Origin: Albidovulum inexpectatum
GTDB lineage: Bacteria > Pseudomonadota > Alphaproteobacteria > Rhodobacterales > Rhodobacteraceae
Length of the DNA: 64,000 nucleotides
NCBI RefSeq assembly: GCF_002927635.1
Contig: NZ_PRDS01000001.1
Location: 558,001-622,000, forward strand
Reading direction: 5' to 3'
Below, piece by piece: positions 16,433-29,863 of this stretch. The notes beneath the pieces are model-generated. The model did not search any database. It saw nothing but the letters and a program-made list of their open reading frames with translations, and was not told the DNA's origin. Position 1 is the stretch's first letter; each line of letters begins with the position of its first letter. Position numbers and translations under genes: made by a program.

Positions 16433-16455
16433 CGGGGGCCCGCGGGCCCCCGTTT
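16433..16455 (+). terminator. Terminator-like perfect inverted repeat after mutS
   Basis: The 20-base perfect palindrome CGGGGGCCCGCGGGCCCCCG begins three bases after the mutS stop and is followed by TTT. The T run is short, so termination may be partial. The right arm overlaps the parS-like palindrome by two bases. Confidence 0.7.
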
Positions 16456-16466
16456 CACGTGAAACG
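16451..16466. promoter_or_regulatory. parS: Variant parS centromere site
   Basis: CGTTTCACGTGAAACG is a perfect 16-base palindrome that matches the standard chromosomal parS consensus TGTTTCACGTGAAACA at the inner 14 positions; only the outermost pair differs (C/G for T/A). It lies between the convergent mutS and grpE genes, about 12.5 kb from oriC, on the same side as the two perfect sites. Confidence 0.75.
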
Positions 16467-21110: not shown

Positions 21111-21463
21111 TGCGCCCGGTCTGGACGGTCGGCGGCCTTGTGGCGCTCGCACTGGGTCTGGCCGGGATCGCCCTGCCCCTGCTGCCGACCGTGCCCTTCC
21201 TGCTGCTGGCGGCCCTTTGCTTTGCGCGGGGGTCAGAATATCTGCATGACTGGCTGCTGACGCACCCCCGTCTGGGCCCGCCGATCCACGACTGGCAAGA
21301 ACGCGGGGCCGTTTCGCGGCGCGCCAAATGGGCTGCGACGCTGTTCATGTTGATCGCCATTGCAGTGCCCGCGGCGATTGGCGTCGCGCTGTGGATCACG
21401 ATCGTGCAAGGCGCCACGCTTGGCGCCGTCGCGCTGTTTCTGTGGTCCCGGCCAGAGCCCTAG
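21110..21463 (+). CDS. YbaN/DUF454 family membrane protein
   Basis: 117 residues with an N-terminal helix pair (GLVALALGLAGIALPLLPTVPF), the conserved ARGSEYLHDWLLTHPRLGPPIHDW segment and two further helices at the C-terminus: an inner-membrane protein of the DUF454 family, function unknown. The ATG shares one base with the hemW stop; a GTG one codon earlier is an alternative. The last gene of the rph operon, it ends tail-to-tail with parB, the two stops overlapping. Confidence 0.85.
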   Translation: MRPVWTVGGLVALALGLAGIALPLLPTVPFLLLAALCFARGSEYLHDWLLTHPRLGPPIHDWQERGAVSRRAKWAATLFMLIAIAVPAAIGVALWITIVQGATLGAVALFLWSRPEP

Positions 21464-22344
21464 CGCGTCTGGCCCAGGATCTGGCAAAGCTGGTCCAGCT
21501 CATCCAGTGTGCGATAGGTGATCGTGACCTGTCCGCCCTGCTCTCCCTTGTGGTCGATGACGACCTTCATCCGGAGATTGGCCGAAAGATCCTGCTCGAG
21601 CATTCGGGTATCGGCATCTTTCTCGGGCCTGGGTCGAGCCGAACGATCGGGCGCGGGGCGTGTCTTGGCCAGCCGCTCGGTCTCGCGCACGGAAAGACCC
21701 TTGGCGATGACCTGACGCGCCAGGCCGACGGGATCGTCCGCGGTGATCAGGGCACGCGCATGACCCGCGGAGAGTTTGCCCTCTTTCAGCCAAGCCTGGA
21801 CCTCTTCGGGAAGGTTCAGAAGGCGCAGAAGGTTGGCAATGTGGCTGCGGCTCTTCGACAGGGCTTCGGCCAGCTTTTCCTGCGTGTGACCAAAGCGATC
21901 CATCAGCTGCCGATACCCCAGAGCCTCTTCGATCGGGTTCAGGTCGGCCCGCTGGATGTTTTCGATGATCGCGACTTCCAGCACTTCGGTATCGCTGAAG
22001 TCGCGCACGATCGCGGGAACTTCGTGCAGCTGTGCCATCTGGGCGGCCCGCCACCGCCGCTCGCCCGCGACGATTTCGTAATTGTCCGGATTTCTGGGGC
22101 TCTTGCGAACGATCAGTGGCTGGATGATCCCCTTTTCACGGATCGACGCGGCCAATTCCTCAAGCGATTCAGGCGAAAAATGTCGCCGCGGCTGATCCGG
22201 GTTCGGCTCGAGCCGTTCGATCGGAATGCGCAGGTCGGCGCGACGGGAAGCGGATTTTCCCAAATCGTCGTCCCGATCGAGATTCACATCCGCCATCAGC
22301 GCCGACAGACCACGGCCCAATCCCCTGCGTTCGTTCTTTGCCAT
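21460..22344 (-). CDS. parB: Chromosome partitioning protein ParB
   Basis: 294 residues. A CTP-dependent DNA clamp that loads at parS and spreads to segregate the origin. The N-terminal basic motif RGLGRGLSALM is present. The ParB/Srx domain includes GERRWRAA (about residue 95), the helix-turn-helix SRSHIANLLRLL binds parS, and a C-terminal dimerisation domain closes the protein. I start at MAKNERRG. It follows parA by 11 bases on the same strand, and two perfect parS sites lie 1.4-3.3 kb upstream. Confidence 0.96.
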   Translation of the reverse strand: MAKNERRGLGRGLSALMADVNLDRDDDLGKSASRRADLRIPIERLEPNPDQPRRHFSPESLEELAASIREKGIIQPLIVRKSPRNPDNYEIVAGERRWRAAQMAQLHEVPAIVRDFSDTEVLEVAIIENIQRADLNPIEEALGYRQLMDRFGHTQEKLAEALSKSRSHIANLLRLLNLPEEVQAWLKEGKLSAGHARALITADDPVGLARQVIAKGLSVRETERLAKTRPAPDRSARPRPEKDADTRMLEQDLSANLRMKVVIDHKGEQGGQVTITYRTLDELDQLCQILGQTR

Positions 22345-22355
22345 GTCGTCCCCAA

Positions 22356-23169
<814 letters not shown>

Positions 23170-23177
<8 letters not shown>

Positions 23178-23793
23178 GAGAAATACCTCCGATTTTCAGA
23201 ATGGTGGCGTCCGGTTCGGTGACGCTGGGCTGGTTCTGATATGAAAACCGCCATTTTTCAAGCGCCTGCCTCAGCTCTTCCTGCCAGCGTGCGCCCTTGG
23301 GAAAAACAGCGACCCCGTCAGGTGCCATATGGCGTTGGGCAAATTCAAGTAGCTTGGGAAGAGGCGCCAGGGCCCGGGCGCTGAGCACGTCGGCCCCAAG
23401 GGGCGCGATATTCTCAATCCGCTGCGCTTCGATTCGCAGGTCCAGCCCAAGTTCGCGCGCCACTGTCGCGAGGAATGCTGACTTTCTGAGATCAGCCTCG
23501 ACCAACGTCACTTTGAGATCAGGACGTTCGTCCACGGCCAGAATTGCAACGATCATGCCAGGCAATCCCGCGCCACTGCCCAGATCGACCCAGTTTCCGG
23601 TCGCGTCGGGAACACTATCGAAGACCTGAATCGAATCGCGAATGTGGCGCTCTTGAATCTCGGTGATGGTCGAACGGCCGATCAGGTTTATCCGAGAGGT
23701 CCACTTGCGCAAAAGATCTTCGTAACGACGAAGGCGTTCGAATGTTTCACGTGAAACATCCCGTCCCCTGATCTGACAATGGATCGCGGTCAT
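23170..23793 (-). CDS. rsmG: 16S rRNA m7G527 methyltransferase (GidB)
   Basis: 207 residues. SAM-dependent methylation of G527 in 16S rRNA; its loss classically gives low-level streptomycin resistance. The SAM loop [10 protein letters not shown] lies near residue 70. The sequence [10 protein letters not shown] near the N-terminus is encoded by a perfect parS palindrome, so this stretch of protein is constrained by centromere function. It overlaps mnmG by four bases (ATGA) and parA by eight. Confidence 0.94.
23743..23758. promoter_or_regulatory. parS: Perfect parS site inside rsmG
   Basis: TGTTTCACGTGAAACA, a perfect 16-base palindrome identical to the conserved bacterial chromosomal parS sequence. 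It is read in frame by rsmG as VSRETF. About 5.1 kb from oriC and 0.6 kb from parA. Confidence 0.93.
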
Positions 23794-25655
23794 CCCGCTG
23801 CCTGTCGTCTTTCAGCCTTGCGCAAGGCGGCAAGGATCAGCGTCAGTGCCGCCGGCGTCATGCCCTCGACCCGAGCCGCCTGGGCCAGGGTTTCGGGTCG
23901 AGCGCGTCCAAGCTTTTCTTTCAGCTCGTTTGAAAGCCCCGACAATGCGCCATAATCGAAATCGGCGGGAATTTCGTGGGATTCATCCCGCTGAAGAGCC
24001 TCGATATCCGCCCGCTGGCGCTCGATATAGGTTGCATAAGTCGCGTCGCGCTTCAGTTGAGCGGCAATCTGGGGGTCAATTTCCGAAAGTTCCGCCTTGG
24101 CTTGTTGCAATTGGACCATGTCGACATCCGGGAATCCAAGCAAAACATAGCCATTCCGACGCTGGCCATCCTGTGAGACGTTGATGCCGATCTGTGCAGC
24201 CTCGCGTGGCGTCAGGTTGAAACTCTCAAGCAGTTCGCGCCCGCGCTCCAGCGCCTCCATCTTTTGTTCGAAACGGCGTTTGCGTTCGTCCGATACGCCG
24301 CCAAGCGAGATCGCGATCGGGGTCAATCGCTGATCTGCATTATCCGCACGCAGCGAGAGCCGAAATTCCGCGCGCGAGGTAAACATGCGGTACGGCTCTG
24401 ATACACCCCGTGTCACGAGATCGTCGATCATTACGCCGATATAGCTGTCCGATCTGGAGAAAATGACGGGCGCGCGTTCCAGCGCAGACAGTGCCGCGTT
24501 CATTCCCGCAACAAGGCCCTGTGCTGCGGCCTCTTCATATCCTGTGGTGCCATTGACCTGACCCGCAAGATACAGACCCGACTGGGCGCGCAACTCCAGC
24601 GTGGACCTCAGCGAACGGGGATCAACATAATCATATTCGATCGCATAACCAGGCTGCAGGATCCGCACGTCCTCCAGCCCCACGATCGAGCGGACGTAAG
24701 ACTCCTGCACCTCCACGGGCAGCGAAGTGGAAATTCCGTTGGGATACACGGTGTCGTCGTCCAGGCCTTCGGGTTCAAGAAAGACCTGGTGCGATGTCTT
24801 GTCGGCGAACCGGACGATCTTGTCTTCTATGGATGGACAATATCGTGGGCCGACGCCTTCGATATGTCCCCCATACATCGCTGACCGCGAAAGGTTGGCG
24901 CGGATGATTTCGTGGGTTCTTTCATTCGTGTAGGTAATTCCGCAGGAAATCTGACGCTGAAACGGTCGGTCATGCAGAAACGAAAAAAGGACCGGGTCAT
25001 CGTCCGCTGGCTGAAATTCCAGCCGATCCCAGTCGATCGTCCGCCCGTCCAGGCGCGGCGGCGTCCCCGTCTTCAGCCGACCCAATGTCAGCCCCATATC
25101 CGAGATACGCTCTGCCAGCCTGACCGACGGCTTGTCGCCCATCCGGCCTCCGGGACGCTTCTCGTCGCCAATATGAATGATGCCACGCAGGAAAGTGCCC
25201 GTGGTCAGGATAACCGCATGGGATTCAATTTCTGAACCATCCTGCAGGATGACGCCAGAAACGCGGCCCTCCCGGAACAGAAGGTCCGTGGTTTCGCCCT
25301 CGATGATCGTCAGATTGGGTTGTGCTTCGCTTATCGCAAGCATGGTTTCACGGTAAATCCGGCGGTCAGCCTGGGTCCGCGGCCCCTGAACTGCCGGCCC
25401 CTTTCGCCTGTTCAACAGACGGAACTGAATGCCAGCATGGTCAGCGACGCGGCCCATGACACCATCCATGGCGTCGATCTCGCGCACCAGGTGGCCCTTT
25501 CCCAGGCCACCGATAGCCGGATTGCAGGACATCACACCAATCGTGTCACGCCGTAGCGTCACAAGCGCAGTGCGCGCACCCAGACGCGCCGCAGCATGCG
25601 CCGCTTCGGTTCCGGCATGTCCGCCTCCGACGACGACGACATCGAAATGTTTCAC
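23790..25655 (-). CDS. mnmG: tRNA U34 carboxymethylaminomethyl synthesis enzyme MnmG (GidA)
   Basis: 621 residues. An FAD protein that, with MnmE, modifies wobble uridine U34 of tRNAs. The FAD-binding motif [13 protein letters not shown] is at the extreme N-terminus, and the GidA signature [11 protein letters not shown] is near residue 270. There is no ATG start. AAGGAG precedes two in-frame GTGs, at 25664 (overlapping the ribosome site) and 25655 (eight-base spacer), and I choose the latter. Relatives often begin MFHVKH, which would match the first GTG. The start region is built from a parS palindrome. Confidence 0.94.
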
Positions 25656-25663
25656 GTGAAACA
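25648..25663. promoter_or_regulatory. parS: Perfect parS site at the mnmG start
   Basis: TGTTTCACGTGAAACA, the second exact copy of the 16-base consensus. It spans the translation start of mnmG and touches its ribosome-binding site. About 3.2 kb from oriC. Confidence 0.93.
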
Positions 25664-28381: not shown

Positions 28382-28831
28382 TCAGAACTTCACGATGACT
28401 GAGAACACGATCACCAGCAGGAAAAGCGTCGGCAATTCGTTCATGATGCGATAGGTCCGACCGCTGCGCGTGTTCGCGCCGCTTGCGAACTCCTTGCGCC
28501 GGTATCCCAGCCAGTGATGGAACCAGGTCATGCCCAGCACCCCGGCGGCCTTTGTCCATGGCCAGACCTCGGACCAGTCCACAATCCCCGGCGTAAAGAC
28601 CAGCATCAGGCCAAAGACCCATGTGGCGATCATTGCCGGGTTCATGATCAGCCGCAGCAGCTTGCGTTCCATTTCCTGGAACAGCTTGTCTCCTTCCGAC
28701 CCGACCGCGACCCGCTCGGCATGATAGACAAACAGCCGTGGCAGATAGAACAGCCCGGCCATCCAGGCGATCACCGACACGACATGCATCGCCTTTGTCC
28801 ACGGATAAAGATTCGCCAGCAGATCGCCCAT
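28382..28831 (-). CDS. hemJ: Protoporphyrinogen oxidase HemJ
   Basis: 149 residues with four membrane helices, of the HemJ (COG1981) family that oxidises protoporphyrinogen IX to protoporphyrin IX in heme synthesis. The conserved His16 in WTKAMHVVSVIAW and the WTKAAGVLGMTWFHHWLG segment are present. GAGGT lies upstream of the ATG. In related genomes hemE sits between hemJ and oriC (recalled); here hemJ directly abuts the origin region. Confidence 0.9.
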   Translation of the reverse strand: MGDLLANLYPWTKAMHVVSVIAWMAGLFYLPRLFVYHAERVAVGSEGDKLFQEMERKLLRLIMNPAMIATWVFGLMLVFTPGIVDWSEVWPWTKAAGVLGMTWFHHWLGYRRKEFASGANTRSGRTYRIMNELPTLFLLVIVFSVIVKF

Positions 28832-28905
28832 GCAGGTACCTCACATCACGGCCTCATCTAATTCAAATCCTTATAGAGAAAGAAGGATCTTGATGCAGTA
28901 GGCCC

Positions 28906-28969
28906 TGTGGGCAATGTGGATAACACATTTCCCCACATCCTTGTCCACAAGGGATCGATCTGTGGAAAA
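28906..28969. promoter_or_regulatory. Left DnaA-box cluster
   Basis: Boxes relative to TTATCCACA: 28906-28914 (TTGCCCACA, minus), 28915-28923 (perfect, minus), 28929-28937 (TTCCCCACA, plus), 28941-28949 (TTGTCCACA, plus) and 28961-28969 (TTTTCCACA, minus). The first two are directly adjacent. Confidence 0.85.
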
Positions 28970-28999
28970 GTCTGGGGAAAGAGTCGCGAAAATACCCTG

Positions 29000-29042
29000 A
29001 AATCTTATTTTTATTATTTACTATCAATATCTTAACAAATAA
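29000..29042. other. AT-rich DNA unwinding element
   Basis: Forty-three bases with five C and no G on the plus strand, flanked on both sides by DnaA boxes. This is the probable initial melting site. The strand asymmetry (no G) is marked. Confidence 0.82.
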
Positions 29043-29085
29043 CGCGAATGTGGGTATTTGTTGATACTGAACCGCAGACACGTCC

Positions 29086-29255
29086 TGTGGATCAGCGAAT
29101 TATCCACAGGACGGTGATTTCGGAATTCACAGAGGTACGAATCGTCCTGGAACTTTCCCGAAAGGCCCGACTTGCCCACAGCGCCCCGATCTGCGCATGT
29201 TTTGCACCGCATCAGACACAGGTTTCCGCCCCTTTTGTCCACAGGGCTATCCACA
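29086..29255. promoter_or_regulatory. Right DnaA-box cluster, running into maf
   Basis: Boxes at 29086-29094 (TGATCCACA, minus), 29100-29108 (perfect TTATCCACA, plus), 29172-29180 (TTGCCCACA, plus), 29235-29243 (TTGTCCACA, plus) and 29247-29255 (CTATCCACA, plus). The last ends on the first base of the maf start codon, so DnaA could occlude maf translation or transcription signals. Confidence 0.82.
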
Positions 29256-29863
29256 TGACCGATACGAATGCTCAGCTGGTCCTTGCGTCGGGTTCGGCCA
29301 TCCGTGCCCAGCTTCTGCGCAATGCCGGGCTTGCCATCGAAACGCATCCCGCCCACATCGACGAAGAGGCCATCCGCGCCGCGCTTCAGCATGAAAACGC
29401 CACGCCGCGCGACATCGCCGACGCCCTGGCGGAACTGAAGGCCCGCAAGATTTCGGACAAGTTTCCTGGCGCACTGGTTCTCGGCTGCGACCAGGTCCTG
29501 GATCTGGATGGACAGGTGCTGTCCAAGCCCGAAGATCCGGAAGATGCGCGGGCTCAACTGCTGGCCCTGCGCGGGCGCACCCATCGCCTGCTGTCGGCCG
29601 CCGTTGTCGCGCGCGACGGAACGCCGATATGGCGCCATGTCGGTCAGGTCCGACTGACGATGCGCGACTTCTCGGATGCCTATCTTGACGATTACCTGGC
29701 CCGCAACTGGCAAAGCATCCGCGACAGCGTCGGTTGCTACAAGCTCGAGGAAGAGGGAGTGCGGCTTTTTTCCCGCATTGACGGAGATTACTTCACCGTC
29801 CTTGGCCTGCCCTTGATCGAACTCTTGACCTGGCTGTCCGTTCGCGGCGACATCGCCTCATGA
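29255..29863 (+). CDS. maf: Maf-like nucleotide pyrophosphatase
   Basis: 202 residues. Nucleoside triphosphate pyrophosphatase of the Maf/YhdE/YceF group, hydrolysing dTTP/UTP or modified nucleotides. The N-terminal signature LASGSAIRAQLL (residues 10-21), LGCDQVLDLDGQVLSKP and the late EGVRLFSRIDGDYFTVLGLPL segment are present. The motif has Ala-Ile where Maf proteins usually have Pro-Arg. The ATG is preceded by a DnaA box. First of four overlapping genes maf-aroE-coaE-dnaQ leading right from oriC. Confidence 0.9.
   Translation: MTDTNAQLVLASGSAIRAQLLRNAGLAIETHPAHIDEEAIRAALQHENATPRDIADALAELKARKISDKFPGALVLGCDQVLDLDGQVLSKPEDPEDARAQLLALRGRTHRLLSAAVVARDGTPIWRHVGQVRLTMRDFSDAYLDDYLARNWQSIRDSVGCYKLEEEGVRLFSRIDGDYFTVLGLPLIELLTWLSVRGDIAS

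Follow-up and report, generated by a model that had tools for sequence, protein, structure and literature searches.

The intergenic region between hemJ and maf, at positions 28832 to 29254 of the window (the 64,000-nucleotide stretch analyzed here), is almost certainly the chromosomal oriC of a Rhodobacteraceae bacterium. This agrees with the original prediction and is supported by the density of DnaA boxes, the neighboring parS sites and ParAB genes, and the symmetry of GC skew in relatives with a one-contig chromosome (good in two and rough in a third). With moderate confidence, we favor an Escherichia coli-like layout, in which a DNA unwinding element (DUE) at the left edge is followed by an R1-like DnaA box, an IHF site, and further boxes. 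The boxes, their spacing, the conservation of motifs, and the skew of relatives are observed directly in sequence. The region is an ordinary chromosomal oriC, and origins of Rhodobacteraceae have been predicted previously: Ori-Finder origins are available for 101 members of the family, based on boxes, GC disparity, and parAB, and the accessible part of that report contains no description of the box layout, C-free tract, or IHF sites considered below (PMC6699656). The origin itself was expected; the comparison yields a testable map for the family, i.e., the tract predicted to open, the predicted place of IHF binding, and a 12-base spacing identical to that of E. coli.

Sequence and profile matches indicate that the region is intergenic and bounded by two genes that, as originally described, diverge from it: hemJ on the left (28382 to 28831, minus strand; TIGR00701, 9e-42, above the cut-off) and maf on the right (29255 to 29863, plus strand; TIGR00172, 9e-36, above the cut-off). 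The left side also carries rho, mnmE, mnmG, rsmG (RsmG profile match above the cut-off), parA, and parB, while maf is followed by aroE, coaE, and dnaQ. No recognized gene separates the box clusters, which share this single hemJ-maf intergenic region, and the layout is not that of a bipartite oriC.

The predicted cluster of two exact and several near-exact DnaA boxes is real, comprising two exact copies of TTATCCACA, five boxes with one mismatch, and five with two. To the left of the middle A+T-rich tract lie TTGCCCACA (28906 to 28914, minus, two mismatches), the exact, R1-like box (28915 to 28923, minus), TTCCCCACA (28929 to 28937, plus, two mismatches), TTGTCCACA (28941 to 28949, plus, one mismatch), and TTTTCCACA (28961 to 28969, minus, one mismatch). 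To its right lie ATACCCACA (29049 to 29057, minus, two mismatches), in an R5M-like position 27 bases right of the start of the putative IHF site, GTATCAACA (29059 to 29067, minus, two mismatches), TGATCCACA (29086 to 29094, minus, one mismatch), the second exact box (29100 to 29108, plus), a second TTGCCCACA (29172 to 29180, plus, two mismatches), a second TTGTCCACA (29235 to 29243, plus, one mismatch), and CTATCCACA (29247 to 29255, plus, one mismatch). The arrangement had been described as mostly minus on the left and mostly plus on the right. Counting up to two mismatches, that description holds only in part, with three minus and two plus boxes on the left and, on the right, three minus boxes nearest the tract and then four plus boxes. 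The 64 kb window contains 11 matches with no more than one mismatch, against a mean of 3.27 in 100 dinucleotide shuffles (standard deviation, 1.62; largest value, 8; none reached 11); of these 11, the hemJ-maf region has 7. Exact boxes number 12 in the 3.0 Mb draft genome, and their sole close-together pair is the one described here. The region thus holds a dense intergenic DnaA-box cluster, as befits an oriC.

Neighboring loci for comparison were collected through the Maf protein because a direct DNA search with the region in 31 genomes gave only two matches, one of which was the genome itself. Among 61 family genomes, two (G000 and G031) duplicated members of the genus set and three (G052, G084, and G092) had only paralog-level Maf matches; the remaining 56 and the genus set of 16, restricted to genomes at least 95% complete, provided 72 origins. 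A further 80 loci, less one that was too short (L251) and six identical to others, contributed 73, giving 145 distinct family origins, of which 134 were retained after redundancy removal for motif and spacing counts. Mean duplex stability over the 145 origins has two weak zones, left and middle, at ∼400 and ∼270 bases ahead of the LAS codon of maf, and the weakest tract is the left one in 89, the middle one in 54, and elsewhere in 2.

Judged from sequence, a C-free, purine-rich tract at the left edge is the most conserved weak element of the family. C-free runs of at least 30 nt are present in the left zone of 133 of the 145 origins (111 of 2,900 zone shuffles), and GATGATG occurs there in 85 origins and its complement in none. 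De novo motif discovery in the left zone returned AAAAAAAAAAAGGATGATGATGTTGTAGGG (26 bits; estimated share, 0.93 of 134), with a log-likelihood of 1743 versus 177 and 192 for two dinucleotide-shuffled sets, which were given 30 random starts versus 40 for the real set. In the window, the corresponding candidate DUE is a purine-rich tract on the plus strand at 28860 to 28902 (left border approximate) that ends in TAGG (28899 to 28902). Unlike that of most relatives, it is interrupted by C, and the tract of the window species appears to be partly eroded. Of the 12 origins counted without a C-free run, 7, including the window, truly lack one; the run begins one base outside the zone in L244, measures 28 and 29 nt in L214 and L258, and lies ∼1.2 kb up, past a DUF299-like gene, in L222 and L225.

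The junction between this candidate element and the first exact box is TAGG-N12-TGTGGATAA (28899 to 28923, plus), which has the spacing of E. coli R1, and TWGG-N12-TGTGGATWA has only this match in the draft. When the gap in TWGG-Nn-NGTGGAT was varied from 4 to 23 in the left zone, 45 of 134 loci matched at n = 12, 11 at n = 13, 3 at n = 11, and at most 2 at any other value; before the middle box, the N12 junction was found in 0 of 134, with no peak. The window therefore has an E. coli-type junction, in that a weak tract, here C-interrupted, ends in TAG 13 bp from a minus-facing R1-like box.

The oriC of E. coli MG1655 (NC_000913.3) has the same TAGG-N12-TGTGGATAA at its first box, which we take to be the one named R1. 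The likeness extends to the A+T-rich tract outside the R1 box, to the first exact box facing minus and the last facing plus, and to a minus-strand mnmG on the left side, the polarity of the origin being the same. In contrast to E. coli, the present origin is longer (∼420 bp), its middle A+T tract and its edge tract are equally weak, relatives have GA and GATG repeats in a C-free left tract where E. coli has 13-mers, and the flanking genes here are hemJ and maf. An IHF site within the box region of E. coli oriC is reported in the accessible text of PMC13220808; the pattern that we used for IHF has no match in a 701-base E. coli stretch, and for that species the parallel rests on the literature. 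Trio-like KAK motifs beside the E. coli DUE-R have already been published, according to the available portions of PMC12342881 and PMC13220808. Neither a C-free GATGATG element nor the shared N12 spacing was found described in the open literature, as far as its texts were accessible.

The middle tract (29000 to 29043, plus) is A+T rich, is the weakest duplex of the origin, and is a candidate IHF bend region, unwinding site, or both. It does lack G, as originally noted, and its size and C content are 44 nt and 6 C rather than 43 nt and 5 C. No other run on its 661,678-base contig reaches 38 nt without G or without C, and nowhere else on the contig does a 50-mer contain 41 or more A+T, i.e., the A+T-rich, unstable tract of an oriC is present. 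Its duplex stability is −0.98 kcal/mol per step, compared with −1.15 for the left tract, and this middle-minus-left contrast ranks 2nd among the 145 origins.

Inside the tract, the IHF consensus, which we take to be WATCAANNNNTTR, is matched exactly by TATCAATATCTTA (29022 to 29034, plus), a putative IHF site. The looser IHF-like pattern WWWCAANNNNTTR occurs in the middle zone of 41 loci on the plus and of 10 on the minus strand among the 134 (mean, 3.1, and maximum, 9, in 100 shuffle sets) and in the left zone of only one, on the plus strand. The exact consensus is present in the middle zone of 12 loci on the plus and of 3 on the minus strand (0.7 mean and at most 3 by shuffling). By the pattern used, most family origins are without an IHF-like site. 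Where sites could be related to boxes, the distance from R1 was 93 to 96 in 16 and 105 to 107 in 7 of 26 origins, and that from the site to the following minus-facing box with 8 or more of the 9 letters was 26 to 28 in 4 and 35 to 38 in 20 of 27. The corresponding window distances are 107 from R1 to the IHF site, then 27 to the weaker box at 29049 and 64 to the stronger box at 29086. The draft also encodes an IHF alpha-like protein that scores over the himA cut-off. R1-to-next-box spacings peak at 110 to 112, 119 to 124, 129 to 134, and 140 to 147 (R of 0.61 at 11 bp; n = 47), and a helical-phase reading of them is suggestive only because the loci are related.

The original prediction had taken this tract for the melting site. 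Its designation of the locus as oriC stands, and melting in the tract is doubtful, given the exact IHF consensus inside it, the better-conserved left element outside the box cluster, and the rarity of its counterparts: G-free runs of at least 30 nt occupy the middle zone in 14 of 145 origins, above chance (73 of 2,900 zone shuffles) but rare. Even so, that the G-free tract is the true unwinding element of the oriC, opened by DnaA on the minus-facing boxes at 29049 to 29067, is a possibility to be taken seriously, albeit not the one that we expect. It would place opening at the weakest duplex of the region and the highest A+T 50-mer of the contig, in a zone that is weak throughout the family and in which the de novo motif is a conserved minus-facing DnaA box (estimated share, 0.77 of 134; log-likelihood, 327 versus 76 to 85 for three shuffled sets).

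The same boxes also satisfy the rule for a basal unwinding system (BUS), i.e., a box with at most two mismatches, a spacer of 0 to 16 bp, and at least three 3′-NAN-5′ triplets, as given in the available text of PMC8287927. Within the 650 bp examined, only the neighboring boxes at 29049 to 29067, which share the same triplets and point into the G-free tract, do so (ATACCCACA, spacer TTCGCG, TTATTTGTT); the left element of the window has fewer than three consecutive NAN triplets. The rule is loose, however. It does not discriminate among positions, because it is satisfied on the left in 22, in the middle in 21, and at the maf start in 36 of the 72 origins, and this looser NAN rule was dropped as unspecific, with 64 of the 72 matching somewhere. 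Opening within the tract is further opposed by its occupation by the IHF consensus and by a review that, in its accessible part, places DUEs upstream or downstream of box clusters and never amid one (PMC4285127).

Left-edge opening with IHF bending in the middle is favored because of the middle-zone IHF-like sites and their spacings, the IHF alpha-like gene, and the location of DUEs outside box clusters in the available part of that review (PMC4285127). Confidence in the full layout is reduced since the IHF-like pattern is missing from most origins and only a third of them have the N12 spacing exactly. The window species fits a left DUE less well than its relatives do, because its middle tract is the weakest and its contrast with the left tract is nearly the largest of the set; for this species itself, melting in the G-free tract may be the right reading. 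From these observations we infer binding by DnaA and IHF, bending, a place of melting, and helicase loading, as follows. (i) DnaA would bind the box arrays that flank the middle A+T tract. (ii) IHF would probably bend that tract at 29022 to 29034 and bring the two arrays together. (iii) The R1-like box (28915 to 28923), 13 bp from the TAG at 28899 to 28901, would probably guide DnaA onto the left tract (∼28860 to 28902). (iv) The left tract would open, and DnaB would be loaded there. (v) The very weak G-free tract may assist or take over in the window species, because its left tract is partly eroded.

The left tract could also be part of the hemJ promoter or otherwise serve hemJ. That the C-free element is mainly a hemJ promoter or leader, with the unwinding site elsewhere in the origin, seems to us quite unlikely. 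The element does lie just upstream of hemJ in the window and, on reading their sequences, in relatives, and it is absent in L232, the sole origin seen with a hemE-like left neighbor. However, L232 is not alone, since six other origins also lack the tract, among them the window and L227, both with hemJ on the left. The preferred TWGG-N12-NGTGGAT spacing is that of E. coli oriC, whose left neighbor is mnmG, and the low duplex stability of the element likewise speaks for unwinding.

Partition genes and sites adjoin the region on its left. parB (21460 to 22359, minus) matches TIGR00180 parB_part at 1.1e-63, above the cut-off; parA (22356 to 23177, minus) matches NF041546 ParA_partition at 6e-33, below the curated cut-off, and is assigned as the chromosome partition ATPase by its position beside parB. 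The parS motif, presumably TGTTTCACGTGAAACA, occurs exactly at 23743 to 23758 (plus, in the coding sequence of rsmG) and 25648 to 25663 (plus, in the coding start of mnmG). No other site in the 3.0 Mb draft comes within one mismatch of the motif, and these two lie 3 to 5 kb from the origin region. Farther left, a palindrome at 16451 to 16466, CGTTTCACGTGAAACG, differs from parS at two positions.

GC skew in the draft of the window species has no sign switch at 29.0 kb. It is not decisive, because contig C1 stops 75 kb farther right and skew is locally negative on either side. Along the 661,678-base contig, skew has mostly negative values to the left of the region, is negative immediately to its right, and is close to zero beyond 600 kb, with its minimum at 659,549, beside the contig end. 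Skew was therefore read in three relatives with a one-contig chromosome, sampled as 20 kb stretches. In G013, of the same genus (maf at 92 kb of 4.175 Mb; 40 stretches), the change from negative to positive skew falls between 3.91 and 0.2 Mb, an interval with near-zero values, and the return to negative is at ∼2.15 Mb; half a chromosome from maf corresponds to 2.18 Mb. In G080, a family member with maf at 122 kb on a 4.19 Mb contig (20 stretches), skew becomes positive between 4.0 and 0.43 Mb and switches back at ∼2.2 Mb. A third relative, G036, also a family member (20 stretches; maf at 3.478 Mb on a 3.559 Mb contig), agrees only roughly, because the positive arc of its best two-state fit begins at 0.54 Mb, some 0.6 Mb past maf, and the reverse switch is at ∼1.54 Mb versus an expected 1.70 Mb. 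It is highly improbable that the boxes are instead a regulatory cluster through which DnaA acts on the divergent hemJ and maf operons, with the true origin elsewhere: DnaA boxes do abut the maf start codon, the draft's own skew is not decisive, and dnaA lies ∼111 kb away, but parS and ParAB adjoin the region, two relatives have a skew switch near this locus and the third agrees roughly, and the draft has no second close pair of exact boxes.

The original observation that hemE is missing beside the origin is borne out: the gene is on another contig (C5:115298-116305), and hemJ adjoins the region instead. The locus is thus not a hemE-type alphaproteobacterial oriC. In all six family genomes with both genes on one contig (G002, G010, G013, G015, G035, and G036), hemE lies ∼200 to 660 kb from maf, and in the remaining family genomes searched for both, the window genome included, the two are on different contigs. 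Among the seven genomes of the class covered by both searches (maf match at an E value of ≤1e-35), hemE and maf are 1.2 to 3.3 kb apart in five (G019, G027, G030, G038, and G039) and on different contigs in two (G022 and G028). Because hemE is distant in the family genomes measured, its loss from the origin looks like a trait of most of the Rhodobacteraceae; L232, of the family, has kept a hemE-like gene beside the origin, as read from its translation. In L222, L225, L227, and L232, maf and the DnaA boxes are separated by a gene that we take from its motif to be DUF299-like; it lies ∼370 bases before the maf start, and the boxes are ∼0.8 to 1.2 kb further up. This order of maf, DUF299-like gene, and boxes is probably the older one.

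CtrA-type motifs, assumed here to be TTAACCAT or TTAA-N7-TTAA, do not occur in the 650 bp of the window examined, and the region does not match a CtrA-controlled oriC of the Caulobacter type. For the Caulobacter Cori, the accessible part of PMC1914354 describes several DnaA boxes, a 40-bp region rich in A+T, and an IHF site. The present region differs from that origin, and from hemE-adjacent origins generally, in that hemE does not adjoin it.

Comparison with the basal unwinding system of Bacillus subtilis gives one match and three differences. The window's TAG (3′-GAT-5′) is 13 bp from the box, the commonest spacer in the available portion of PMC8287927. In contrast to B. subtilis, the window's left element falls short of three consecutive NAN triplets, a strict trio motif ([CT]T[AT] three times) stands beside a box in only 1 of 72 origins (L013, not the window), and alignment to B. 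subtilis DnaA (8btg) puts Tyr at the position of Asn187 in five of five family proteins (L049, from the draft itself, and L323 to L326). Asn187 of B. subtilis DnaA contacts the trio adenine, according to the accessible text of PMC10721633. In the 59 origins with TWGG-N11-13-NGTGGAT, the commonest triplets are 5′-ATG ATG ATT TTG TAG, each position often carrying a different triplet instead; a central A is found in 86% at TAG, 34% at the next triplet, and 0 to 8% at the following three.

A broader proposal, which we offer tentatively and consider unlikely to hold in full, is that the intergenic region of family origins combines two weak tracts, both conserved, and that on the left a C-free GA/GATG tract, specific to one strand, is connected to an R1-like box at the spacing seen in E. 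coli. A noncanonical single-stranded DNA code (commonest triplets, 5′-ATG-ATG-ATK-WTG-TAG, with T for the central A upstream of TAG) would be read by a DnaA with Tyr at the place of the adenine-reading Asn187 of B. subtilis, the junction would be an ancestral feature common to alpha- and gammaproteobacterial origins, and the melting site of the window species would be shifting from left to middle. The shared 12-base spacing offers a test of whether one DnaA unwinding geometry extends across the Proteobacteria and whether the DnaA-trio rule needs a wider code.

The last box overlaps the maf start codon (29247 to 29257, CTATCCACATG); it extends one base into maf, its final A being the A of the ATG. 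Such a box leaves scant space for the usual ribosome-binding site and may allow control of the maf-aroE-coaE-dnaQ operon by DnaA. TCCACATG stands at the maf start in 69 of the 145 family loci.
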